Below are positions 335 to 26,296 of a stretch of DNA of 44,871 nucleotides, piece after piece (position 1 is the stretch's first letter; each line of letters opens with the position of its first letter). A model generated the notes under the pieces. That model was not told the DNA's origin and searched no databases. It saw nothing but the letters and a program-made list of their open reading frames with translations. The translations under genes were made by a program, and so were the position numbers. The DNA comes from Candidatus Magnetocorallium paracelense (GTDB taxonomy: Bacteria; Nitrospirota; Thermodesulfovibrionia; Thermodesulfovibrionales; Magnetobacteriaceae), in contig JAREWP010000040.1 in NCBI GenBank assembly GCA_029001845.1, positions 1 to 44,871 on the forward strand, given 5' to 3'.

Positions 335-360
335 TAAAAAAACAGCAGTCAGCTTTCAGC
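335..360. repeat. Solo terminal repeat of the AACAGC MITE-like family
   Basis: This short stretch matches the outer end of the repeat family found in full at 26444-26592, 30788-30939 and 37276-37437 (an A-run, then AACAGCAGTCAGCTTTCAGC). Only one end is present. It contains the stop codon (TCA on the plus strand, 356-358) of the minus-strand pyruvate-kinase-like gene. The last residues of that protein may therefore be encoded at the edge of a repeat remnant. Confidence 0.6.
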
Positions 361-1393
361 GAATGTGTTTTGAATTGTTCCCTTTCATCCTCGACAATGC
401 CTCGTTTATCAGGGCGTTGATGGTGCGAACGGCATTAACCGGATCTACGCCTACAGCCGTTTCGTCTGACAGTATAAAGCCGTTTACGCCCTGTTCCACG
501 GCAGTTACTATATCCGTCAATTCGGCTCTGTAAGGGGTATGTCTGTGGACCAGAGAGAAGAGCAACTCGCCGGCCAAAAGGAGAGGTTTTTTTTGACCTT
601 TGGCTTCAGCAACAATGTGTCTTTGTGCGTAAGGCAGTTCGGGCAGGGGGATTTCAGTACCCAGGTCACCCCTGGCAATACATATGCCGTCGGACTCTGC
701 GACAATCTCTCCTATATGATTGACTGCCGAAAGAAGTTCGACTTTGGCGATAATCGGTATTTCCCTGTAAAGCTCTTTTAAGGTGTTTCGCAGAAATCGG
801 ATGTCTTGCGCCGTTTCTACATAGGATAAATAAACATGGTCAATAACGTTTTCCGGAAAAGAGTTGATGTCTTCATAATCCTTCTCAGTCAGAGGCGGGA
901 TATTTGTCGAATGTCCGGGTATGTTCACTCCGCTTCTTTCAGGCAGTTCTCCCCCTTTTTCGACAACACATACAACCTCGCTTTGTAATGTTTCCTTCAC
1001 CTCTAAAACAAGCGCGCCGTCGTCAAGAAGAATGGTTGTCCCCTCTTTTATGGAAGAGGACATATCGGGATAATTGACAGAGGCTCGATCGTAACTGCCT
1101 AAAAATTCCTGTTCCGACGGAATCAGGCGGAAGTCAGCTCCCCTTTGAAGAATAATCTTACCATCGGGAAAGGGGCCTGTTCTCAGTTTTCTGCCTCTGA
1201 TATCAGTGCCTATCTTTATACTCGGAGAGGTTTCACGTATAAGATTTATCGACTCGGCAAGGTCGCTCTCCTTAATGTGAGAGAGATTTAGTCTTACTGC
1301 ACTAACACCGGTATCAAGCAGTTCCTTTAATACCTTTCGATCCTTACAGGAAGGCCCCTGTGTAATATGTATATCCATTGAATGTTCAGCCAT
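356..1393 (-). CDS. Pyruvate-kinase-like protein lacking the C-terminal domain
   Basis: The protein resembles the A and B domains of pyruvate kinase, which makes pyruvate and ATP from phosphoenolpyruvate and ADP. Recognisable motifs (numbered from an alternative TTG start at 1408) are VRLNLSH (38-44), a Lys-Val-Glu near 222-224 matching the catalytic Lys region, ARGDLGTEIP (245-254) and LSDETAVG (313-320). It stops near residue 345, whereas typical enzymes run to about 470, so the regulatory C-terminal domain is absent. The usual TQMLESM segment reads AGELLFS and the DTKGPEIRTG segment reads TDIRGRKLRTG, so activity is uncertain. The ATG at 1393 is chosen because GAGG lies 9 bases upstream. 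It overlaps the antitoxin gene stop by 8 bases, implying translational coupling. Confidence 0.75.
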   Translation of the reverse strand: MAEHSMDIHITQGPSCKDRKVLKELLDTGVSAVRLNLSHIKESDLAESINLIRETSPSIKIGTDIRGRKLRTGPFPDGKIILQRGADFRLIPSEQEFLGSYDRASVNYPDMSSSIKEGTTILLDDGALVLEVKETLQSEVVCVVEKGGELPERSGVNIPGHSTNIPPLTEKDYEDINSFPENVIDHVYLSYVETAQDIRFLRNTLKELYREIPIIAKVELLSAVNHIGEIVAESDGICIARGDLGTEIPLPELPYAQRHIVAEAKGQKKPLLLAGELLFSLVHRHTPYRAELTDIVTAVEQGVNGFILSDETAVGVDPVNAVRTINALINEALSRMKGNNSKHIR

Positions 1394-1676
1394 TTTTAAA
1401 AACCTCAAATCCTTCTAAATAATCGTCATAATCTATAGGTGACTCTATCCCGAATTCAGCCAATAAATCTATCGTCTCACTCAAAGACAGCTCAAGTTTA
1501 GACGAAAGAACTCCAATGGAAATTTTACCTTTTCTGTAAATATCGATCATCAAAAATCTCCATCCATATTCGATTAATTCCCTGGCTACAGTAGATTTTT
1601 CTTTATGCTCTACAGTGGAGAGTTCATTGATCCTGTTCATTTCCTTCTCTTTAAGCCTTAAACTTATTACACTCAT
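1386..1676 (-). CDS. UPF0175-family protein, probable antitoxin of PIN toxin
   Basis: This 96-residue protein has an N-terminal beta-strand/helix resembling a ribbon-helix-helix DNA-binding start (MSVISLRLKEKEMNRI). It is followed by the helical region typical of UPF0175 proteins (ARELIEYGWRFLMIDIYRKG, then SLSETIDLLAEFGI). UPF0175 genes commonly pair with PIN-domain (DUF3368) genes and are thought to be antitoxins. Here the start overlaps the PIN gene stop in a TAATG arrangement. The unusual point is order: the toxin-like gene comes first and the antitoxin-like gene second. Its 3' end overlaps the pyruvate-kinase-like gene. The family assignment is by motif reading. Confidence 0.75.
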   Translation of the reverse strand: MSVISLRLKEKEMNRINELSTVEHKEKSTVARELIEYGWRFLMIDIYRKGKISIGVLSSKLELSLSETIDLLAEFGIESPIDYDDYLEGFEVFKNG

Positions 1677-2170: not shown

Positions 2171-2208
2171 ATGTATTCATTGTACTACATCTGTAATACA
2201 TATCGCAA
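2171..2208 (-). promoter_or_regulatory. Putative promoter and operator of the PIN/UPF0175 operon
   Basis: On the minus strand, TTGCGA (2208-2203) and TACAAT (2184-2179) lie 18 bases apart and fit -35 and -10 boxes. A start point about 7 bases downstream would fall at about 2172, next to the toxin ATG at 2170. An inverted repeat, ATGTATT (2171-2177) and AATACAT (2195-2201), covers the -10 box, as expected for an operator of a self-repressing toxin-antitoxin pair. The divergent molybdoenzyme gene starts about 70 bases away. Confidence 0.4.
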
Positions 2209-2278
2209 GGTTTTATACAAATTTGATACAATAAATGACTGCTCAGATATCAATTACCGGAAAAGAAGCTATACAGAC

Positions 2279-4360
2279 ATGAAAAAAGACAGAGTATTTT
2301 CCATATGCGGGATGTGTACAGGGCGGTGTCCTGTTGAAGTAGAGGTCGAAGGCGGAAGGGTGAAGCTTATTCGCGGAAACAGGCATTACTCAGGTTCCGG
2401 GAAGATTTGTGCAAGAGGGGCGGCAGGGGTCTCTTTTCTTTATGACAGGGAGCGTCCTCAATATCCGATGCTTAGAAACGGCGCAAGGGGTTCAGGCAGT
2501 TGGAAAAAGATAAGCTGGGATGAGGCTCTGGATTTTGTGTCCGGGAAACTCAGTTCAGCAATAGAAAGGAATGGGGCAAAAACTGTCGCATTAAGCGACA
2601 GAGGTGGCCCGACAACGGATTTTCAAAAAGCTTTTATCAGAGCCCTAGGGTCTCCCAACTATTTCAACCACCATGCAACCTGTTCGAACAGCGTTCACAA
2701 CGCCCATATGTCAATAGCAGGACTGGCTCGAAACCAGGTAGGTTATGACTATATAAATTCTAAATACCTGGTCCTCTACGGCCGCAATCTCTTCGAATCT
2801 CTTGTTGTAGGAGAAGTCAATGATGTATTGGACATGATCGAATCGGGAGGCAGGGTTGTCTATATCGATCCCAGATGGACATATACGGCGTCAAAAGCCT
2901 CGGAGTCTTATATAATCAGACCGGGATCGGATTATGCGTTTAATCTTGCATTAATTCATGTGATTTTACAAAAGAGGCTCTACAATGAGGAATTTGTAAC
3001 CGAAAATGTAATCGGCCTGGAAAAATTGAGGGAGTTTGTATCAGCCTGCACTCCTGAATGGGCCGAGAAGGAAACAGGAATATCTGAAGGAGTTATAAAA
3101 AAAATCGCCTTCGAATCGGCTGAGGCAAGCCCGGCCGTCATCTTTCATCCGGGATGGATGACGGCATGGGGAAGTGATGATTTTTACCTCAGAAGATCGA
3201 TATATACCTTAAACGCCCTGATGGGCTCTTATGAGGCCAAAGGCGGATTGTTTATTAATAAAACACCTAAAGATTTGGGGGTGAATGTTAAGTCGCTCCT
3301 TTCTTCCGTACCGGAGATCAGGGAAGAGAGATTCGACGGTGCAGGAACGAAATTCCCGCACTTGGGACCTCAGTGGGGACTGGGCCAGATGCTGCCTGAC
3401 GCTATAGAGAGCGAGAGTCCGTATCCGATAAGGGCCTATATTGCAATGAGACATGATCCTCTGGCCTCCATGCCGGATCCCGACAGATTCAGGAAGGCCC
3501 TGTCAAAGCTGGATTTGCTCGTATCGATAGATGTGAATTACAGTGAAACGGCCTGGTTTTCCGATATAATTCTGCCGGAATCAACTTTTCTTGAAAGAAC
3601 GGATCATGTTATAGCACGGAACGGATTGAATCCGAAACTGATTGTACGTAAAAAAGCGGTGGACCCCGTATTCGATACAAAGGCAAGGTCATTTATATTT
3701 ACATCTCTGGCCCGAAGACTGGGGATTGGCAAATTCTTTCCTTACGAATCGATAGAGGAATATATAGAGCAGCAATTGTCGGATACTGATTTTACTTTAG
3801 AAGATTTCAATGAAAAGGGATTTGTCGAACTCAGTGACAAACCTTTGTGGAGAAAGAGGAAAGAGGGGCTTCAATTTAAGACTCCCTCCGGTAAACTCGA
3901 ATTGTATTCCGAAAGGCCGGAGAAAAAAAGTATACCATCTTTTATAAAATACAATCCTCCCCCTCTGCCTGAACCGGGGAGCTTCCGCCTCCTGACCGGT
4001 AAAAAGGCTGTACACACCCAGGGAAGGACGACTTTAAATAACGCCGTTCTCAATGAATTGGCATCTGACAACTATCTTTGGATAAACAGACCGGCAGCCC
4101 TGAACATGGGTATAACAGAAGGGGAAGAGGTGGAGATATCCGGTGGAGGGAATACTTTTACTATGAAGGTCAGACTAACGGACCATATTCATCGGGAAGC
4201 TGTTTTTATGTTACACGGATTCGGAGATTCCGTACCCCTGCGCAGTCGATCTTATAACAAAGGCGTAAGTGATGTGAAATTGCAAAGCGGTCTTCTCAAG
4301 GCGTCGGTTGGCGGCAACTGCCCGTTGACAGAGTGTGAAGTTAAGATTAGGAAGATTTGA
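2279..4360 (+). CDS. Molybdopterin oxidoreductase catalytic subunit (Psr/Phs-like, soluble)
   Basis: This 693-residue protein belongs to the DMSO-reductase superfamily, which uses a molybdenum bis-pterin cofactor. Counting from the ATG at 2279, an N-terminal [4Fe-4S] motif is visible at C10, C13, C17 and C44 (SICGMCTGRCPVEV). A Cys in HATCSNS (C135) sits where polysulfide and thiosulfate reductases place the Cys ligand to Mo. The C-terminal part shows the molydopterin-dinucleotide-binding region (LTGKKAVHTQGRTT). There is no twin-arginine signal, so it should stay in the cytoplasm, unlike classical PhsA/PsrA. The frame is open upstream to 2171, but the extra 36 residues look non-conserved. 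The gene ends in a TGATG overlap with its electron-transfer subunit. The substrate cannot be told from sequence. Confidence 0.85.
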   Translation: MKKDRVFSICGMCTGRCPVEVEVEGGRVKLIRGNRHYSGSGKICARGAAGVSFLYDRERPQYPMLRNGARGSGSWKKISWDEALDFVSGKLSSAIERNGAKTVALSDRGGPTTDFQKAFIRALGSPNYFNHHATCSNSVHNAHMSIAGLARNQVGYDYINSKYLVLYGRNLFESLVVGEVNDVLDMIESGGRVVYIDPRWTYTASKASESYIIRPGSDYAFNLALIHVILQKRLYNEEFVTENVIGLEKLREFVSACTPEWAEKETGISEGVIKKIAFESAEASPAVIFHPGWMTAWGSDDFYLRRSIYTLNALMGSYEAKGGLFINKTPKDLGVNVKSLLSSVPEIREERFDGAGTKFPHLGPQWGLGQMLPDAIESESPYPIRAYIAMRHDPLASMPDPDRFRKALSKLDLLVSIDVNYSETAWFSDIILPESTFLERTDHVIARNGLNPKLIVRKKAVDPVFDTKARSFIFTSLARRLGIGKFFPYESIEEYIEQQLSDTDFTLEDFNEKGFVELSDKPLWRKRKEGLQFKTPSGKLELYSERPEKKSIPSFIKYNPPPLPEPGSFRLLTGKKAVHTQGRTTLNNAVLNELASDNYLWINRPAALNMGITEGEEVEISGGGNTFTMKVRLTDHIHREAVFMLHGFGDSVPLRSRSYNKGVSDVKLQSGLLKASVGGNCPLTECEVKIRKI

Positions 4361-4794
4361 TGTTCATAAAACTTAATCGAAAACGGTGCATAGGGTGTCA
4401 CGCATGTGAAGTGCTTTGTAAAATCGAAAAGGGACTGCGTCCGGATCTTTATCTGTGCAAAATCAGATCATCTAAGAAAAGGGATGAAAGGGGGGATTTG
4501 AAAATAGCATTCAGCTATGAAAACTGTACTCACTGTAAACGATTAAGTTGTGTTTCCTCCTGTAAATCCGGTGCTGTCAAAAAGAAAGATGAGGATAACA
4601 TTGTTTATCTTGATTATGGTTTATGTAACAGTTGCGGAGAGTGTCTCGATGCCTGTAAAAGAGGGATAAGGTGGGACAGTAAAGAGAGAAAACCTCTTAA
4701 ATGCGACCTCTGCATGGAAAGGATCGATAACAATCTCCTGCCGGTCTGTGTAGATGGCTGTTGTACATCGGCTCTTACCCTTGTCAGAGGATAG
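4360..4794 (+). CDS. Four-cluster ferredoxin subunit of the molybdoenzyme
   Basis: This 144-residue protein carries four Cys groups fitting four [4Fe-4S] clusters: CIGCHACEVLC, CTHCKRLSCVSSC, CNSCGECLDAC, and CDLC followed later by CVDGC. This is the layout of DmsB/PhsB/PsrB-type electron-transfer subunits. The ATG overlaps the stop of the catalytic subunit by one base, so the two are surely co-translated. No membrane-anchor (C) gene follows; the next gene is convergent. The pair is therefore probably a soluble reductase or oxidase that exchanges electrons with a cytoplasmic carrier. At about 145 residues it is shorter than most PhsB/DmsB proteins, which are about 190-205. Confidence 0.85.
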   Translation: MFIKLNRKRCIGCHACEVLCKIEKGLRPDLYLCKIRSSKKRDERGDLKIAFSYENCTHCKRLSCVSSCKSGAVKKKDEDNIVYLDYGLCNSCGECLDACKRGIRWDSKERKPLKCDLCMERIDNNLLPVCVDGCCTSALTLVRG

Positions 4795-4804
4795 GAGTAT
4801 TTTC

Positions 4805-4840
4805 AGATAATCAAGAGGCATCATAATCTCTCGATTATCT
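4805..4840. terminator. Hairpin between convergent genes, possible two-way terminator
   Basis: AGATAATC (4805-4812) pairs perfectly with GATTATCT (4833-4840). AGAG and CTCT extend the stem after one mismatch, leaving a loop of about 10 bases. It lies across the 26-base gap between the ferredoxin gene and the tilS stop codon. It has no clear T-run on either side, so intrinsic termination is only possible, not certain. Confidence 0.35.
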
Positions 4841-6185
4841 CCAGTCTTACACAAACATCCGTGCTGTCTGTTACCTTAAACCTATCGTCTGCTCTGAATC
4901 CGGCGATCCATACAATATCGCCTTGAGAAAGCAGAATCGGAACCCTGTCCCTTTCGTCTTTGGGGACTTTTTCGTCAACAAAGAAATCCTGTAGTTTTTT
5001 TCTTCTGCCGAAACCGAGAGGATAAAAATGATCTCCACTCTTTCTTCCTCGAATTTTCAACGTCTTGTTAAGTTTTTCGGCATCAAGGCAGACAGAGGTT
5101 TTTGAGTCATCTTTAGAACATTTCTCGATTATTTCGGTTTTAATGACACTGCCTGTCTCTTTTAGAAGCAACTCTCCCGGTATATCCAATTCATATTCTC
5201 CAATTTTAACCGGAGGTTCACAGGTTATAATAAGAGTGGAATACCCTTTAATGACCCGTATTTCATCGGGCAGGTAAACCCTTGCCCCTGAAAGGCCGTT
5301 TTTTATTAAAAGCATTATATCCTCGATATGACCACGTCCGATGCCGTGCAACGAATCCACCGAATCCACGGCTCGCCTCAAAAGCCTTCTGAGAATAACT
5401 TTATCCATATATTGAAGGGGAGACAAAAAAAGTTCGATTCGATTCTCACCTTTTCTGCTAATAAGTTTCATCAGTTTTTTTGAGACTTCCATCTCTATAT
5501 AATTATTTTCCTCCCTCATAATCGCGGCAGTATTTGAAAGTGCGTCCGTAATGGAAGGGTTATAATGTTTAAGTACGGGGATGAGGGAGTTTCTTACTCT
5601 GTTTCTTATATATTTCATATTGTTGTTGGAAGAATCGATTATATAATCCACTCTCTGTTCTTCAAGATATTCCTCTATCTCTTCACGACTCGCTTCTATC
5701 AACGGTCTTATGATCGCGTCCCTCACAGGCGGAATTCCCGAAAGCCCGGTCGGGCCCGAGCCTCGCAGAAAATTCATTAAAAGGGTTTCTGCATTGTCGT
5801 TTTTGTTGTGGGCAATTGCTATTTTATCTGCACCGACCTCGTCTGCTCTTTCATGAAATTTTTTGTATCTCTCCTCTCTTGCAACAGACTGCCTGTTACC
5901 TGACATGAGATCGAGTGAGGCGATCTTCTTTACGGAAAAAGGAATGTTTAATGTGTTACACAAAAGGGAGCAGAAATCGATTTCTGAGGTTATTTCGTCA
6001 GGTCTGAGGCCGTGGTCAACATAAAGGGCATGTAGAGTTATGTCCAGATCGAGGTTACAAAGGAGATGTGTCAGACATACGGAATCCGGCCCGCCCGACA
6101 GGCCGACAATAACGGATTCACCGCCTTTTAACATATTATAATAGTAAATGGAGGTTTTTATTCTTTCTGTAAAAGAGAGAGGCAT
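4821..6185 (-). CDS. tilS: tRNA(Ile)-lysidine synthase TilS
   Basis: TilS attaches lysine to C34 of tRNA-Ile2 (anticodon CAU), using ATP, so that it reads AUA codons. The PP-loop ATPase motif GLSGGPDSVCL lies near the N-terminus, followed by the N-type synthase fold (AIAHNKNDNAETLLMNFLRG, GLSGIPPVR). The C-terminal TilS domain is recognisable (LKIRGRKSGDHFYPLGFG, KKLQDFFVDEKVP). The length, about 454 residues, is normal. I choose the ATG at 6185, 7 bases after the stop of the upstream fusion gene. A GTG at 6239 would add 18 residues and overlap that gene, and looks less likely. The gene probably forms an operon with the upstream AckA-PduL fusion. Confidence 0.92.
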   Translation of the reverse strand: MPLSFTERIKTSIYYYNMLKGGESVIVGLSGGPDSVCLTHLLCNLDLDITLHALYVDHGLRPDEITSEIDFCSLLCNTLNIPFSVKKIASLDLMSGNRQSVAREERYKKFHERADEVGADKIAIAHNKNDNAETLLMNFLRGSGPTGLSGIPPVRDAIIRPLIEASREEIEEYLEEQRVDYIIDSSNNNMKYIRNRVRNSLIPVLKHYNPSITDALSNTAAIMREENNYIEMEVSKKLMKLISRKGENRIELFLSPLQYMDKVILRRLLRRAVDSVDSLHGIGRGHIEDIMLLIKNGLSGARVYLPDEIRVIKGYSTLIITCEPPVKIGEYELDIPGELLLKETGSVIKTEIIEKCSKDDSKTSVCLDAEKLNKTLKIRGRKSGDHFYPLGFGRRKKLQDFFVDEKVPKDERDRVPILLSQGDIVWIAGFRADDRFKVTDSTDVCVRLEIIERL

Positions 6186-6192
6186 GTGATCG

Positions 6193-8481
6193 CTACATAT
6201 ACAATCTGGACCGTATTGACTCAATATCTCCTGTGTCACCCCTTTTAATATTCAGAGCCAATGCCTCGTCTTTGTCTATATGAATAGCTGAAACGGAATC
6301 TGACCATACTTTGACTAAAATGTCTCCAAGTATGCTGTTCTTGTCATTTTCAGTTCTTACCGTTACTATATCCCTGTCTTTCAAGCCTCTCATAAGAGCC
6401 TCTTTTACTGAAATATGTATATGCTTTCTGACGCGGATCACACCTCTTTTAATCTTAACGGCCCCCTTGCTTCCCTCTATTGTCAACCCCGGTGTTCCCT
6501 CGAGATCGCCGGCGTCTCTTAATGGCGCCATTATTCCGAGCCTGAACTCATCCGTGCTTGACACTTCCACCTGCGTTTTGTCTCTGAATGAACCGGATAC
6601 AGCAACCTCGTCTATCTCTCCACCAGGCCCGATTAATCTGACTCTCTCTTTAAAAGCAGTCTGTAAACCGGCGACCGGCAACTTCCCGGCATCGTTGTTT
6701 CCAAAGAGAGTTGTAAAATCACTCCTGCTTAAGTGCACATGAGAGGGCTGCACGACAAAGGGAATACTCCCGGCTGTACGATGTCCGGCGCCGGCCATTC
6801 TGGCGGCATGGAGGGTCTCCCTGGCTATCATTCGTTCTTCGTCCGCCGGAATCACCAATATTCTTATCTTCGAATCACTCTTCGAGATGTCGATAACCTC
6901 GCCTTTTTGAGGCCTTGCATTCCTGTTCGCCCGATGATCCATATGAATTCCAAAGGACTCAAGGCCGTTACAAATCCTCGCCCTCACTTCAGAGGAATTT
7001 TCTCCTATGCCTGCCGTAAAAATAAGGGCGTCAGCGTCGCCGAGAACAGCCATATAGGAGCCGATATATTTCCTTACTCTGTAACAAAATATATTAATTG
7101 CGCTCTTACTGCCGATATCTCCCTCTAAGGCGGACTTAAAAAGCTCCCGCATGTCGTTACTCTTTCCGCTTACTCCCAAAAGACCGCTTTTTTTATTAAG
7201 AATTTTATCTACGTCGTCTGGTGACATATTCAATGTTCTCATCAGATGAAACACGATCCCCGGGTCTATGTCTCCTGAGCGCGTTCCCATGACAAGCCCT
7301 TCAAGGGGCGTCATACCCATACTCGTATCCACGCTTCCGCCTCTTTCGATGGCGCATAATGAGACTCCGTTTCCAAGATGGCAGGAAATCAGTTTCATTG
7401 AATGCAGCGGTCGTTTTAGAAACATGGAAGCCCTTAAACAGACAAATTTATGATTCGATCCGTGAAAACCATATCGTCTTATCTGCTGTTTTTCATATAG
7501 TTCACCGGGAATTGCATATTTAAATGCTCTCTCCGGCATACTCTGGTGAAAAGCGGTGTCAAATACAGCCACATGAAGGGCAGAGGGCAGGAGTCTCCTC
7601 ATCTCCTCTATGCCTGCGAGATTATACGGATTATGGAGAGGCGCAAGCTCGGAACACTCTTTTACAGATGTGATAACATCGTCAGTCAGAACAACGGATC
7701 CGGAAAACTTCTCCCCTCCGTGTACGACCCTGTGACCAACGGCGCTTATCTCCGAAATATCGCCGATTCCGCTTACCGGAGATTCTTTAATAAAAGAAAC
7801 CATTTCAGAGAGGGCCTCGCCGATTCCGTCAATTTTTAGATGGCGCTCTTCCTTTCCCTCTCTGGTGTCGGTTTTATGGACAGACTCGGCGGAACCGATA
7901 TTTTCTATTAATCCTGTAAATAAGGTAATATTTTTCGATGTATCAAAAAGAGAGTATTTAAGAGAGGAACTGCCTGTATTAATAACCAATATTTTTATGG
8001 AGTCATCTGTAGATGTAAAAGCCAGATCATAGGGGTCATTATTAAGAGATAATGCCGTGAGCAGACGAGTATCGTCATGCCTTTCTCTAAATAACGATGA
8101 TAAAACATCATTTACGGGGTTCAAAAATTTTTCGTTTTCACCTATTATGAAAGACAAGATTTTTTCACTTATTCGGATAATCCTGCACTCATTGAGAGCG
8201 ATGATCTTGTAGATTGAGGGCTCACCTGTCAGTAATGACATCTCCCCGAAAATATCGCCTCTCTTAAGAGTTTTTATGGAAGCGTTTTCATCACCATCCG
8301 ACATAACCCTGACACTGCCGTCGTATATAAGATAAAGGTGTCTTTGTATGTCGCCGATTCTCATAACAGACTCTCCCTCTCTGAACTCGACAACTCTCGA
8401 CTCTGACAAGAGCTTTTCCAACTCCTTGGCGTTAAGCACCGAAAAGGGATGTACCGACTTTAAAAGTTCATTTATTCCCAT
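6193..8481 (-). CDS. Fusion: cNMP-binding-like domain + acetate kinase + PduL phosphotransacylase
   Basis: This 762-residue protein has three parts. Residues 1-135 resemble a cyclic-nucleotide-binding (CAP_ED) domain, with GDIFGEMSLLTGEPS at 75-89. Residues 162-560 are a full acetate/propionate kinase: VINTGSSSLKYSLFD (166-180), GHRVVHGG (249-256), FDTAFHQ (307-313, with the Asp expected in catalysis), RYGFHGSNH (336-344), GTRSGDIDPG (399-408) and FTAGIGEN (488-495). Residues 571-762 match PduL-type phosphotransacylases, with two His-rich motifs, QPSHVHLS (578-585) and RKHIHIS (685-691), that bind zinc in the family. The chain could convert acyl-CoA plus phosphate to acyl-phosphate and then to acid plus ATP, or the reverse. 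In the CAP_ED part, the Arg that normally contacts the cyclic phosphate is replaced by Ser89. No encapsulation peptide is obvious. Confidence 0.9.
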   Translation of the reverse strand: MGINELLKSVHPFSVLNAKELEKLLSESRVVEFREGESVMRIGDIQRHLYLIYDGSVRVMSDGDENASIKTLKRGDIFGEMSLLTGEPSIYKIIALNECRIIRISEKILSFIIGENEKFLNPVNDVLSSLFRERHDDTRLLTALSLNNDPYDLAFTSTDDSIKILVINTGSSSLKYSLFDTSKNITLFTGLIENIGSAESVHKTDTREGKEERHLKIDGIGEALSEMVSFIKESPVSGIGDISEISAVGHRVVHGGEKFSGSVVLTDDVITSVKECSELAPLHNPYNLAGIEEMRRLLPSALHVAVFDTAFHQSMPERAFKYAIPGELYEKQQIRRYGFHGSNHKFVCLRASMFLKRPLHSMKLISCHLGNGVSLCAIERGGSVDTSMGMTPLEGLVMGTRSGDIDPGIVFHLMRTLNMSPDDVDKILNKKSGLLGVSGKSNDMRELFKSALEGDIGSKSAINIFCYRVRKYIGSYMAVLGDADALIFTAGIGENSSEVRARICNGLESFGIHMDHRANRNARPQKGEVIDISKSDSKIRILVIPADEERMIARETLHAARMAGAGHRTAGSIPFVVQPSHVHLSRSDFTTLFGNNDAGKLPVAGLQTAFKERVRLIGPGGEIDEVAVSGSFRDKTQVEVSSTDEFRLGIMAPLRDAGDLEGTPGLTIEGSKGAVKIKRGVIRVRKHIHISVKEALMRGLKDRDIVTVRTENDKNSILGDILVKVWSDSVSAIHIDKDEALALNIKRGDTGDIESIRSRLYM

Positions 8482-20450: not shown

Positions 20451-22262
20451 TTACTGTTTCGGAAGAGTAAAAAAAAATGTGCTCCCCTTTCCGACTTCCG
20501 ATGAAACCCAGATATTTCCTCCCAGAGCCCTTACGATTTTTCTGGCTAAAGAGAGTCCCAAGCCGGCGCCTTCGACTTCATCGCGGGGACTCAACGTCTG
20601 AAAGACCTTAAATATTTTTTCATAGTGTCTCTCTTCTATTCCCGGACCATTGTCGTTTATACTGAATTTCCAGAAACGACTCTCCTCTATGCATTCTATC
20701 AATATCTTCCCGCCGGGTTTGTCCATGTACTTTATACTATTATCAAGAAGATTGGAAAAGACAATCTCGATACCGTTTTTCTCGCTAAGAATAGTTGGTA
20801 ATTCCGCTGTAACAGCGATATCCGTCCCCTTTCCCGGCTTAATCTTCGATATTATATCGCTGACCAGGATGTTAAGGTCCAGTACCTCCCGTTTCTCCAC
20901 AACACGCCCTGCTTTGGAATATTGTAAAATACCGTCGAGCAGATTGTACATCCTCTGTACCCTGCCTGTAAGCATTTCCAGATTATTTCTCCCCTCTTTG
21001 TCAAAGCAGTGCGCATAATCGTCGGCAATGATATCGGCCAGAGAACCTATCGCTCGTAAAGGAGACCTGAGATCATGGGAAAGAATATAGACAAAACTGT
21101 TTAATTCATTATTGGCCTCTTCCAGATTCATGAGCATTGTCGCCTTTGTCTCACTTATTCTTTTACGTTCCAATGTATTTACAAAAACCTCGCCCAACAT
21201 TCTGAGCATCATGCTATCGTCGTTTGACCACTCTCTGACAGTTTCCAGATTTTCAAATCTGAGAAGACCTTTCGCAATTCCGCCATAGTAAAGGGGCGCC
21301 GCTATCATCGATTTCACGCCCTGCTCTTTTAAAATGGCGCCGGCTTCAAAAGGCGCATCATTAACATCGGAAATAACGATATTGTCACCTTTATCGACCA
21401 TGGTTCTGAACCATCCGCTCTTTTCCCGGCAAAAAGACATACATTCGGAACGAATTTGCGAGTCCCCAAGGTCGCGACAAGGGGTATGGAGAAGAAAAAA
21501 ACCCTCTTCCGTAAACTGTTCAAGAATACCCCTATCCGCCTTTAAGAACTCTCCTATGCTTTGCAAACCCGCCTCTATCTCTCTTTCAACGTCACCGGGA
21601 AGGAGATTGATGAACTTGGTGGAGAGATCGGCGATAAATTTCTCTCTATCGACTCTTTCCCGCAGTTCCCAAGTCCTTTTCCTGACCTTCTCTTCAAGAG
21701 ATTCGTTGAGAATCCTCAGTTCGAGCTGAGTCTGACTCAATGTACGATTCTGATTGACCGCACTCTCATATGTCGTAAGCAGAAGGTTGAGTATCTGCCT
21801 TCTGCCTGACCTCAATATATGTCGCTCGCCATCATAATTGAGTTCAAGCGATTCTATCGTCAAATCGTCTCCATGATCGGCGGCATCCAAAAGAATGGAT
21901 TCGATTTTATGTAAAAGGTACTCCTCACTGTAAGGTTTTGTCAAATAATTGTCGGCCCCGACCTCGAGCCCCCGGATAATCTCTTTGGGATTATTCAACT
22001 CTGTAAGCAAAATAACCGGAATGAAACGCAGTTCCCGATCGCCTTTGATTTCGGCGCACATCTCATAACCATTCATCTCAGGCATGGCGATATCGCTGAT
22101 TACAAGAGCAGGTGAAATTTCACGGACCTTTACCAGACCGTCGATCCCGTTTTTCGCTATAGAGACGGAATATCCCTTTTTAAGCAATATTTTCTTCAGG
22201 AATGCAGCCTGAATAGGACTGTCTTCAACTATAAGAATATGGGAATTCTCGTTTTTTAACAT
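20451..22262 (-). CDS. Sensor kinase: REC-GAF-HisKA-HATPase
   Basis: This 603-residue soluble kinase starts with a receiver (IVEDSPIQAAFL, acceptor D57). It has a linker with RRQILNLLLTTYESAV (154-169), a coiled coil, a GAF domain (about 215-365), HisKA with H396 in LSHDLRSPLRAI, and HATPase ending in FFFTLPKQ. The REC-linker-coil layout and the kinase core resemble the upstream neighbour, which has a PAS instead of a GAF. They are probably tandem duplicates that exchanged sensor domains. Its ATG overlaps the stop of the upstream kinase gene by 7 bases, so they are translationally coupled. Confidence 0.9.
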   Translation of the reverse strand: MLKNENSHILIVEDSPIQAAFLKKILLKKGYSVSIAKNGIDGLVKVREISPALVISDIAMPEMNGYEMCAEIKGDRELRFIPVILLTELNNPKEIIRGLEVGADNYLTKPYSEEYLLHKIESILLDAADHGDDLTIESLELNYDGERHILRSGRRQILNLLLTTYESAVNQNRTLSQTQLELRILNESLEEKVRKRTWELRERVDREKFIADLSTKFINLLPGDVEREIEAGLQSIGEFLKADRGILEQFTEEGFFLLHTPCRDLGDSQIRSECMSFCREKSGWFRTMVDKGDNIVISDVNDAPFEAGAILKEQGVKSMIAAPLYYGGIAKGLLRFENLETVREWSNDDSMMLRMLGEVFVNTLERKRISETKATMLMNLEEANNELNSFVYILSHDLRSPLRAIGSLADIIADDYAHCFDKEGRNNLEMLTGRVQRMYNLLDGILQYSKAGRVVEKREVLDLNILVSDIISKIKPGKGTDIAVTAELPTILSEKNGIEIVFSNLLDNSIKYMDKPGGKILIECIEESRFWKFSINDNGPGIEERHYEKIFKVFQTLSPRDEVEGAGLGLSLARKIVRALGGNIWVSSEVGKGSTFFFTLPKQ

Positions 22263-24049
22263 TTCACGCCCTTAGGAAGAGTAAAATAGAAAACACTTCC
22301 CTCTCCTATTATTGATTCGACCCATATCCTTCCTCCATACATCTCTATTATCTTCTTAATCAGTGGGAGCCCCATGCCGCTGCTCGTATTTTCGTCATTT
22401 AAGTCCAGTTTTTGAAAAATCTTAAATATCCTTTCAAAATGTTTCTCATCAATACCAACGCCGTTGTCGGATACATAAAATTTGTGGAAATTTTCTTCCT
22501 CTACATATCCTATCTTTATAACCTTACTGCCCTTATCGTTATATTTTATTGCATTACTTATTAAGTTGTGAAAGATCTGGTCTATATAGCTCTTTTCGAA
22601 CACTATTTCAGGCATGTCCTGCAGGATTTCGACAGTTATTCCTTCATTCGCAGGTAGTGTATCCGTTATATCCCGGATAAGAGAGGAAATATCGATTGCT
22701 AAATCCTTTTCCACAACACGACCGACTTTGGAATAGCGATAAATACTGTCTAACAGATCATACATGCGCCTGACTCGGCTTATGAGCAGGTCCATGTTCT
22801 CCATCCCGTCTTCTCCGAGGCTGACTCCGTGGTCTTCCTTAATCCAGTCTGCAAGTGACCCTATTGAACGAATAGGTGTTTTCAGATCGTGAGAGAGGAT
22901 GTAGAGCAGATTATTCAGTTCCTCATTCGTTCTTTCCTGGTCCATTATGAGCCTTACATGATTCTCCTCTATTCTCTTTCGTTCCTCTATCTCCCTGTGG
23001 AGCTGTAAATTCGCTTTTTTCAGTTCGCCGGTACGTTCTTCAACAAGCTCCTCCAAATGGTTACGGTGTCTCATCAGTTCCAGTTCTGCTCGTTTACGTT
23101 CTGTAATATCAGTGGATATTCCGCAAACCCCGGAGAGCTTCCCATTGGAATCGAATAACGGGAATTTAAAGGATATGTAAGTATGTAAACCGTCTTTTTG
23201 AGAAAAGACCTCTTCCATTTCCAGCGGGGCCGTTTTCTCCAGCACCATTCGATCGTTTATAATGTATGACGAAGCCGCTTCTCCCGGGAAAATATCATAA
23301 TCCGTTTTGTCGGTAATTTCTAAACCGGCAACATCAAAAAGCATTTCGAACTGTCTGTTAACCATCTTATAACGCCCGTTTAGGTCTTTAATATATATCA
23401 CAGCTGTCGTATTGTCCATCAGGGCCTGGAGATATCTCTGATTTTTCAGTAAATCCTCTGTAGACTCCTTAACCCTCTCCTCAAGCTGTTCGTTAAGCCG
23501 CTTAAGCTCTATCTGGGCCTTTAGGAGTTCACGATTTTGCTGAATGGAATTCTCATAGGTGGACAGCAGGAGGTTTAAAATCTGCTGAGGATTGGATTTA
23601 ATTTCATACCGTTCATCGTTGATTATGACTGCAAGGCCGCCCATTTCCGAAGACTTTACATCGCCGTTACGACGAGAGAGCAAGTCAGCTATTCTTCTTA
23701 ACAGATAATCGGAGCTGTAAGGTTTGGTTACGTAATTATCAGCGCCCGACTCTATACCTTTAATTATCTCCCCTGGGTCTCTAAGCTCTGTCAGGAGTAT
23801 TACGGGAACATCTCCATACTCATGATTCTCCTTTATCTCTTTGCACATCTCGTATCCGTTCATAACAGGCATCACGATATCGCTGACAATAATATCGGGT
23901 CTGGTCTCCTTTACCTTTTTTAATCCCTCAGACCCGTTCCTGGCTACTGAAACCCCGTAGCCCTCCTGGATTAGCAATCGTCTTAGCAACTCAGCTTGTA
24001 TAGCGCTGTCTTCGACGATTAAGATATCTTTGCTTTTTTGTTTTTCCAT
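22256..24049 (-). CDS. Sensor kinase: REC-PAS-HisKA-HATPase
   Basis: This 597-residue soluble kinase has an N-terminal receiver (acceptor D57 in VSDIVMPVMNG), a linker with PQQILNLLLSTYENSI (154-169), a coiled coil, a PAS/PAC domain (about 205-320), a second coiled coil, HisKA with H387 in LSHDLKTPIRSI, and HATPase (DNGVGIDEKHFERIFKIFQ). No membrane segment is seen. It is the first gene of the minus-strand signalling cluster, transcribed away from cbiX. The receiver being upstream of the kinase core suggests it is controlled by another kinase rather than passing phosphate on. Confidence 0.9.
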   Translation of the reverse strand: MEKQKSKDILIVEDSAIQAELLRRLLIQEGYGVSVARNGSEGLKKVKETRPDIIVSDIVMPVMNGYEMCKEIKENHEYGDVPVILLTELRDPGEIIKGIESGADNYVTKPYSSDYLLRRIADLLSRRNGDVKSSEMGGLAVIINDERYEIKSNPQQILNLLLSTYENSIQQNRELLKAQIELKRLNEQLEERVKESTEDLLKNQRYLQALMDNTTAVIYIKDLNGRYKMVNRQFEMLFDVAGLEITDKTDYDIFPGEAASSYIINDRMVLEKTAPLEMEEVFSQKDGLHTYISFKFPLFDSNGKLSGVCGISTDITERKRAELELMRHRNHLEELVEERTGELKKANLQLHREIEERKRIEENHVRLIMDQERTNEELNNLLYILSHDLKTPIRSIGSLADWIKEDHGVSLGEDGMENMDLLISRVRRMYDLLDSIYRYSKVGRVVEKDLAIDISSLIRDITDTLPANEGITVEILQDMPEIVFEKSYIDQIFHNLISNAIKYNDKGSKVIKIGYVEEENFHKFYVSDNGVGIDEKHFERIFKIFQKLDLNDENTSSGMGLPLIKKIIEMYGGRIWVESIIGEGSVFYFTLPKGVKC

Positions 24050-24171: not shown

Positions 24172-24549
24172 ATGGAAAGCAGGGGATTGATTTTACTGGT
24201 CCATGGAAGCAAAAATCCCGAATGGCTGATTCCTTTTGAGTCTCTTGCCCGTGAAGTAGGTGCTGTTGCGAAAGATGCTTATGTCTCTATAGCCTGTCTT
24301 CAGTCCTGTGAACCGACTCTGGCGAATGCCATAAAGGAACAGGGACAAAGAGGTATCGCTCATATAATAATCGCACCCTTTTTTATCTCCGCCAGGGGAC
24401 ATGTCTTAAAAGATGTCCCTGTCGTAGTGGAAGGAGTAAAACAGATGTTTCCCCATATCGAAATTACTGTTACCGATGCAATAGGCGAACAATACGAAGT
24501 GAGGGAAGGCATGAGAAAAAGCCTGTTGCGTATATTGGGTGGAGAATAA
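24172..24549 (+). CDS. cbiX: Sirohydrochlorin cobalto-/ferrochelatase, short CbiX type
   Basis: This 125-residue protein is a single-domain CbiX(S) chelatase, which inserts Co2+ into sirohydrochlorin for anaerobic cobalamin synthesis, or Fe2+ for siroheme. The two metal-site histidines are visible: H11 in LLVHGSKNP and H77 in APFFISARGHVLKDVPVV. The small size fits forms that work as homodimers. The frame is open to an ATG at 24115, but the conserved region begins at the 24172 ATG. No other cobalamin genes lie in the window, so whether it serves B12 or siroheme is open. It overlaps no gene and ends 1 base before the next start. Confidence 0.88.
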   Translation: MESRGLILLVHGSKNPEWLIPFESLAREVGAVAKDAYVSIACLQSCEPTLANAIKEQGQRGIAHIIIAPFFISARGHVLKDVPVVVEGVKQMFPHIEITVTDAIGEQYEVREGMRKSLLRILGGE

Positions 24550-24550
24550 C

Positions 24551-26296
24551 ATGGCTACAATGACTAAGAGACGAGTACTATATGGCGAGGCCAATTATAA
24601 AAATCTGATTAAGGGCCATGGTTATTATGTAGACAAGACGGAATATATCCGTCTTATGGAGTCCTACAGGAGTCCGGTCTTTCTGAGGCCACGGAGGTTT
24701 GGAAAATCCCTTATGTGCACAACCCTGTCATATTACTATGATATAAATGAATCGGAAAACTTTAAGGAACTCTTTGGCAATACATCTATTGGGAAAAACC
24801 CCACACCCGGACATAACAGCTACATGGTATTGTCCCTGGATTTTTCGATTATCGATCCGTCAGGGTCAATTGAGGATATCAGGAGACGCTTTAACAATAT
24901 ATGTAATATAGACCTTCAGAGCGTGATCAGGAGGTATAAAAAGTATCTTGGCGAACCGATAGAAATTGACTTGGATAAAGATGTTTCAATCAATTTAAAG
25001 TACATCCTTGCTATGATTAAGGACTATGACCTGCCCAGGTTATATATACTCATAGATGAATACGACAACTTCTCGAACCGGTTGATCACTTCGAACCAGG
25101 ATACTCTCTACAGGGAGTTGACAAAAGATGACTCATTTCTGAAAACCTTTTTTAAAGCCCTGAAAAACGGGATAAAGGAAGATACCATTGTCAGAACCTT
25201 TATTACAGGCGTCCTGCCCATAACCATTGATGACCTTGCCTCAGGTTATAATATTGCCAGATTTCTAACCCTGGAAAGGGAATTCGAGGCCATGCTGGGA
25301 TTTACCCAAAAGGAAGTGGATAATCTCCTCGATATTATCTATTCTGAACATGACATCGATCCGGAAACCAGAAAAGAGGTAACAGAGACTATCGCAAATA
25401 ATTATAATGGTTATCACTTTGTCGATCCGGAGGGCGAGCCCCTCTTTAATTCCACTATACTTATTTATTTTCTGGATACATTTATCAGATACAAGGAAAT
25501 CCCAAGGTACCTGATAGATGTGAACCTGAAGACAGACATATCCTGGGTAAAACGATTAACTGCCTCAAATCCGGCAAACACAGAGGAACTGGTGGACCGG
25601 CTTCTTATTGAAAACAAGATTATTTATAATGAGGTTTCTCTGTTGGAAAAATTTAATATGTCTCAATTTTTCGATAAAAACTTTTATCCAATCTCATTCT
25701 TTTACCTCGGTATGCTCACAAGGAGAGATGATCAGTACATGTGTCTGCCGAATCTGAGTATGAGGAGTATCTTTGTCGACTACTTTAACCAGATCCACAG
25801 TGTTGATATCTCCACAAAATACGCAGAGATGATGAGGGGGTTCATAGATAATCCCGATATACCCAGGTTATTCGGGGATTACTGGAGGTTATACATATCC
25901 CAGTTACCTGAGGCTATATTTCAAAAGGTGAATGAGAACTTTTATCGAACCACATTTTTTGAGCTGTGCAGAAACCATTTATCGGGCTATTTCACATGGG
26001 GAATAGAAAACTCCTATGCCGGTGGCAGGACTGATCTTGAGTTTACAGGCCGGTTTCATACTAAATTCGCAGGTCTCAGATTTCTCTTGGAATTTAAATA
26101 TTACTCCAATGCAAAATGGAATAAGATAAAGACCGGTAAAAAGAGAGGAGAGTTTGAGCCGCCGGAAGATGATTTAAACCGGATAAGGGAGTATAAAGAG
26201 GAGTGGAAGAGAAAACATCCCAATGGACAAAAGGGATGTTTCTTGATTTACTGCTTTGGGAATCAGGGATACAGGGTTTTTCCTGTTGAGGTGTAA
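24551..26296 (+). CDS. AAA-ATPase-like protein with PD-(D/E)XK nuclease domain
   Basis: This 581-residue protein begins with the AAA-ATPase-like (PF09820-type) region. It has YGEANYKNLIKGHGYYVDKT, then a Walker A variant, FLRPRRFGKSLM (44-55), that lacks the usual GxxGxGK spacing, and a Walker B-like YILIDEYDNF. The C-terminus has a PD-(D/E)XK fold of the PDDEXK_9 type: D495 in GRTDLEF and E514-x-K516 in LLEFKYY. The family occurs in many copies in anaerobic bacteria and is of unknown role, with defence or mobile-element links suggested. GGTGGAG lies 6 bases before the ATG at 24551. It starts 1 base after cbiX ends. Confidence 0.88.
   Translation: MATMTKRRVLYGEANYKNLIKGHGYYVDKTEYIRLMESYRSPVFLRPRRFGKSLMCTTLSYYYDINESENFKELFGNTSIGKNPTPGHNSYMVLSLDFSIIDPSGSIEDIRRRFNNICNIDLQSVIRRYKKYLGEPIEIDLDKDVSINLKYILAMIKDYDLPRLYILIDEYDNFSNRLITSNQDTLYRELTKDDSFLKTFFKALKNGIKEDTIVRTFITGVLPITIDDLASGYNIARFLTLEREFEAMLGFTQKEVDNLLDIIYSEHDIDPETRKEVTETIANNYNGYHFVDPEGEPLFNSTILIYFLDTFIRYKEIPRYLIDVNLKTDISWVKRLTASNPANTEELVDRLLIENKIIYNEVSLLEKFNMSQFFDKNFYPISFFYLGMLTRRDDQYMCLPNLSMRSIFVDYFNQIHSVDISTKYAEMMRGFIDNPDIPRLFGDYWRLYISQLPEAIFQKVNENFYRTTFFELCRNHLSGYFTWGIENSYAGGRTDLEFTGRFHTKFAGLRFLLEFKYYSNAKWNKIKTGKKRGEFEPPEDDLNRIREYKEEWKRKHPNGQKGCFLIYCFGNQGYRVFPVEV

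Follow-up and report, generated by a model that had tools for sequence, protein, structure and literature searches.

Single-chain proteins that join an acetate kinase (AckA) to a PduL-type phosphotransacylase have been noted before. Erbilgin et al. (PLoS Biol, 2016; PMC4784909) reported that PF06130, the PduL family, occurs in multidomain proteins that are mostly annotated as acetate kinases and do not carry encapsulation peptides, and they suggested that fusion to the kinase may aid channelling. The two-sentence passage on these proteins makes no mention of a cyclic-nucleotide-binding-like (cNMP-like) domain, of duplicate copies or of divergence between copies. For the free-standing kinases, Porphyromonas gingivalis AckA lost its activity when the counterpart of E384 was mutated (PMC6461089), and the N211S substitution lowered the activity of Methanosarcina thermophila AckA about 200-fold (PMC4390882).

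The window analysed here is a stretch of 44,871 nucleotides from Candidatus Magnetocorallium paracelense, a member of the Magnetobacteriaceae (Nitrospirota). Like the fusions described in 2016, the protein studied here combines AckA and PduL (PF06130) in a single chain, lacks an encapsulation peptide and lies outside any microcompartment.

Domains and active sites of the window protein

The fusion gene lies at 6193..8481 on the minus strand, with AGGTATGGAG immediately 5' of its ATG, and encodes 762 amino acids in one open frame of 762 codons. Three non-overlapping Pfam domains, all far above their cut-offs, were found in it: a cNMP-binding-like domain at residues 31-110 (8152..8391; PF00027, 64.3 bits, cut-off 27.5), an acetate kinase at residues 163-554 (6820..7995; PF00871, 494 bits) and a PduL-type phosphotransacylase at residues 580-745 (6247..6744; PTAC/PF06130, 158 bits, cut-off 25), each likewise on the minus strand. 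An AlphaFold2 model built with 23 family sequences (mean pLDDT 76.8, pTM 0.72) matched acetate kinase 1G99 (Foldseek E 4e-40), Rhodopseudomonas palustris PduL 5CUO (E 3e-18, rmsd 1.5 over 185 columns) and cAMP-bound PfPKA-R (E 1.1e-8). The frame and the three domains are thus exactly as the initial annotation had described them, and its further statements that the kinase is complete and that PduL is complete with both His motifs held when the active sites were aligned.

The kinase domain covers positions 1-392 of the 392 in the PF00871 profile and scores 494.6 bits against TIGR00016 (cut-off 293.4). Numbered by alignment to the M. thermophila structure 1G99, window residues N168, G170, S171, S173, K175, R251 and H283 correspond to N7, G9, S10, S12, K14, R91 and H123, and D308, H340, N371, R401, G491 and E548 to D148, H180, N211, R241, G331 and E384. 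All 12 catalytic residues tested (these positions without G9) are therefore present, and G239 and E385 are kept as well. The domain shares its complete fold and all of the tested residues with the AckA of M. thermophila (1G99) and P. gingivalis (6IOY), but those enzymes are free-standing whereas this one is embedded in a fusion.

The PduL domain covers positions 7-175 of a 176-position profile and carries both His pairs, H581/H583 and H687/H689. Together with E639 and H734 these align with the six Zn ligands of R. palustris PduL, and R633 corresponds to its phosphate-contacting Arg103 (residue roles as given in PMC4784909). The two-Zn active-site residues and the phosphate Arg are hence common to both proteins; the window domain differs in having no encapsulation peptide or microcompartment, in forming the C-terminal part of a larger protein and in its sequence. 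It scored 162 bits against NCBIfam PRK15070, below the cut-off of 209, and it sits on a long branch in the tree. By these sequence measures it is a diverged PduL domain.

The window protein is likely, judging from its sequence, to be a bifunctional acetate/ATP enzyme. The PduL domain would interconvert acetyl-CoA plus phosphate with acetyl-phosphate plus CoA, and the kinase domain acetyl-phosphate plus ADP with acetate plus ATP. The route from acyl-CoA through acyl-phosphate to acid and ATP that was originally proposed for it fits two domains that are both complete and carry their catalytic residues. We infer that acyl-phosphate may be channelled within the fusion, the same suggestion that was made by Erbilgin et al. 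(PMC4784909).

Downstream lies tilS (tRNA-Ile lysidine synthetase; 4821..6239, minus strand), which has no evident tie to acetate metabolism; as called, its frame shares 47 bases with the 3' end of the fusion gene. Elsewhere in the window, a 350-aa frame (356-1408, minus strand) matches the pyruvate kinase barrel domain only, the C-terminal pyruvate kinase domain not being seen there. A molybdopterin oxidoreductase gene followed by that of a 4Fe-4S dicluster protein with a 4-base overlap (2171-4794, plus strand) likely encodes a two-subunit redox enzyme. A protein with AAA-ATPase_like and PDDEXK_9 nuclease domains (24539-26296, plus strand) adjoins two hybrid histidine kinases (20451-24049, minus strand).

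Two copies of the fusion in Magnetobacteriaceae

The window genome (6,007,824 bases) encodes two copies of the fusion. AckA and PduL were found in 18 of the 19 Magnetobacteriaceae genomes compared, always as fusions or fragments of fusions, and the 19 genomes hold no other AckA or PduL genes. We refer to the window's copy as x and to the second copy as y. In the window genome (G000), y encodes 770 amino acids on contig C73 (144869-147175; L044:6867-9179, plus strand in L044). It is located directly 3' of genes for a PilT/T2SSE-type ATPase and a penicillin-binding protein. The y copies form one clade in a quick AckA tree (SH-aLRT 99); x denotes a grouping rather than an established clade. Nine x loci have in common a downstream CCA-adding-type nucleotidyltransferase (PolyA_pol) and a DUF401 membrane protein, while the y copies have no obvious common neighbors and the window copy is upstream of tilS.

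The kinase cleft is altered in y. The window genome's y carries G9R, S10M, E384D and E385K. Position 9, in the phosphate-1 loop, is Arg in all 15 y rows, and E385 is changed in all 15 as well (Lys in 13, Asn in one, Thr in one). N211H occurs in 14 of the 15; the remaining row, the y of the window genome, retains Asn. G9, N211 and E385 are canonical in the window protein, in the x rows and in G005. Loss of the metal ligand E384 from y was considered and ruled out: it is kept in 14 of the 15 rows and is Asp in the window genome's y. Because this ligand is retained, the y kinases may still be active, and their cleft, as read from the alignment, is remodelled but not necessarily dead.

The PduL domains show the opposite pattern. 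Between genera they are 73-80% identical in y versus 29-50% in x, and within genus g4 their dN/dS lies at 0.04-0.08 for the y copies and at 0.13-0.28 for the x copies. For AckA within g4 the trend is reversed and weaker (0.055-0.077 in x, 0.06-0.14 in y). In the window genome the PduL domain of y scores about 254 bits, compared with 158 for the window copy. Lesions in x PduL were seen in several genera: R103K throughout g4, loss of five of the six Zn ligands in G006, and no PduL at all in the x copies of G007, G010 and G004. The x kinase of genus g3 stands alone as a free AckA, and in the same genus PduL proteins of 347-348 amino acids (L058-L061) retain a truncated piece of AckA at the N-terminus (E about 1e-7 to 5e-7 in hmmsearch, where the best of 200 shuffles gave 0.16). 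G005, the sole high-quality genome with a single copy, has kept every tested residue of both enzymes.

The simplest reading of this opposite constraint on the two domains is complementary specialisation after duplication, as far as sequences can tell. The Magnetobacteriaceae would have acquired or inherited a single bifunctional fusion and then duplicated it. In x the kinase would be the conserved activity, with PduL drifting; in y it would be PduL, with the kinase cleft remodelled.

A more extreme version of this history is that the window copy is effectively a monofunctional kinase, its PduL a decaying remnant, and that acetyl-phosphate is supplied by y or by Pta. We lean against it but consider it a serious possibility. 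The fast evolution of x PduL, its loss or destruction in at least three genera, its relaxed though not neutral dN/dS in g4 and the long branch of the window domain all point this way. So does a full classical Pta (AAA_26-DRTGG-PTA_PTB, 722 aa), which among the 19 genomes is found in the window genome only; other PF01515 matches in the family are weak and partial and lie in frames of about 345 aa. With a divergent PduL, and with a separate Pta encoded in the genome, the window protein may act chiefly as a kinase. However, the window frame is open, the seven catalytic PduL residues tested are all preserved there, and the dN/dS of x PduL is well below 1 in g4, a genus to which the window genome, with no congener in this set, does not belong.

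Under complementary specialisation, x and y would not have to act apart. Acetate kinase is a known dimer, and x and y could for this reason form a mixed complex through the dimer interface. It could be speculated further, although we think this unlikely, that such a complex pairs a canonical x kinase with a y phosphotransacylase subunit whose cleft, with its added basic residues (Arg 9 in all, Lys 385 in most and His 211 outside the window genome), has taken on a new role. That role might be the use of another phosphoryl donor such as pyrophosphate, or the sensing of acetyl-phosphate or a nucleotide, and the cNMP-like domain would then bind a ligand other than a cyclic nucleotide.

The N-terminal cNMP-like domain

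In known cyclic-nucleotide sites, an Arg and the Ser/Thr that follows it contact the cyclic phosphate. The corresponding cassette of the window protein (GEMSLLTGEPSIYK, residues 79-92; 8206..8247, minus strand) keeps the Gly-Glu, but it has Ser89 at the Arg position and Lys92 at the Thr/Ser position; PKG sequences read EPRSATII over the stretch where the window protein aligns as EPSIYKII. Among the 84 fusions with a readable cassette, Gly-Glu is kept in all, the phosphate-binding Arg is found in none, and Asp occupies the Thr/Ser position in 66. These domains therefore share the fold and the cassette Gly-Glu with those of PKG, PKA-R and SthK, but differ in having no phosphate-binding Arg and, usually, in having Asp for Thr/Ser.

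This bears on the initial view of the protein as a ligand-gated acetate or propionate switch, in which cAMP or cGMP bound to the N-terminal domain would toggle the joined enzymes. The domain does score as cNMP_binding, its Gly-Glu is invariant, and 19 loci for class III cyclases (PF00211) are present in the window genome. Yet the Arg is missing from every cassette, the Ser/Thr position is mostly Asp, the window copy departs from the canonical residues at both sites, and the x copies reduced to AckA have lost the cNMP-like domain altogether. As the phosphate-binding Arg is absent throughout, canonical cyclic-nucleotide gating is not supported, and we regard a switch of this kind as improbable. 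Conservation of the cassette across phyla nevertheless argues that the N-terminal domain has some function. It is most likely a non-canonical module for regulation or oligomerisation rather than a cAMP/cGMP switch.

Distribution of the fusion

The three-domain protein occurs across Magnetobacteriaceae, Syntrophales, Myxococcota, Planctomycetota, Chloroflexota, Fibrobacterota and other groups. We scanned one genome per species with the C-terminus of AckA plus PduL as the query, and 367 stretches were found to encode a relative. The best 80 of the 367 all match across the AckA-PduL joint. Their hosts include Magnetobacteriaceae (Ca. Magnetominusculus, Ca. Magnetomicrobium), Syntrophales, Myxococcota and Planctomycetota (a Kuenenia among them), together with Aminicenantes, Hydrogenedentes, Chloroflexota, Fibrobacterota, Elusimicrobiota, Spirochaetota, Armatimonadota and Alphaproteobacteria. 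Most of the genes not cut by a contig end also encode the cNMP-like domain; a few do not (for example L119, L142 and L154). In a search of 296 Nitrospirota genomes, joined AckA-PduL was confined, among the matches listed, to Magnetobacteriaceae, and free AckA was found in other families.

Changes in the kinase are not limited to the y copies. In fusions from Planctomycetota (L122, L135, L140, L146), Armatimonadota (L141) and Myxococcota (L119, L154), core kinase residues such as N7, S12, H123 or H180 are missing, but PduL keeps its own. These losses or changes are apparently independent.

That separate genes were joined by misassembly or misannotation has practically no chance of being true: no point in its favor was found, and the same architecture recurs across many phyla in genomes that were assembled independently, among them the single-contig genome G008 and chromosome CP070750. 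This recurrence rules out a frameshift and excludes a chance or chimeric join.

The statement that AckA and PduL are normally separate proteins needs qualifying, because the fusion is common and has been on record since 2016. The AckA-PduL fusion itself is thus both known and widespread. On the other hand, a literature search of largely open-access journals returned no paper joining acetate kinase, PduL and a cyclic-nucleotide-binding domain. Within that literature, two points appear to be undescribed and are new here: the sensor-like module that lacks the Arg, and the reciprocal specialisation of x and y.

Metabolic setting and proposed role

The CdhC subunit of CODH/ACS was found in 15 of the 19 Magnetobacteriaceae genomes and in all 12 of the high-quality ones. 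The microcompartment shell protein PF00936 was found in none of the 19, which agrees with the original placement of the enzyme outside any microcompartment and rules it out as a microcompartment enzyme. In the window genome, contigs C42, C30, C100, C40 and C81 also contain very long frames, of up to 6526 aa, in which AMP-ligase matches recur; their make-up is suggestive of non-ribosomal peptide synthetases.

We consider it probable that the fusion is a soluble cytosolic enzyme of energy metabolism and that the x/y pair supplies the whole pathway from acetyl-CoA to acetate and ATP. In a host that encodes CODH/ACS, the net direction would most likely be from acetyl-CoA to acetate with a gain of ATP. 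Flow toward acetate uptake would also be possible, because an AcsA-type acetyl-CoA synthetase is encoded in most of the genomes (15 of 19 above the cut-off).

A 6.01-Mb genome of a marine magnetotactic Nitrospirota, XS-1, was described in 2023 as having a Pta-AckA route, unlike its freshwater relatives (PMC10278575). This contrast may not apply to the entire route, because the fused AckA-PduL is present in relatives, Ca. Magnetominusculus xianensis (L109) among them, and looking for Pta would overlook it. Across the Magnetobacteriaceae, the predicted route to acetate and ATP is encoded with PduL in the place of Pta.

The cNMP-like module, conserved yet without the Arg, raises the question of whether acetate metabolism in many anaerobes is controlled by a ligand, and by which one. 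The Magnetobacteriaceae themselves would represent a natural experiment in gene duplication, with the two steps of a fused enzyme shared out again between its copies; altered kinase residues are found in the fusions of Planctomycetota and others as well.
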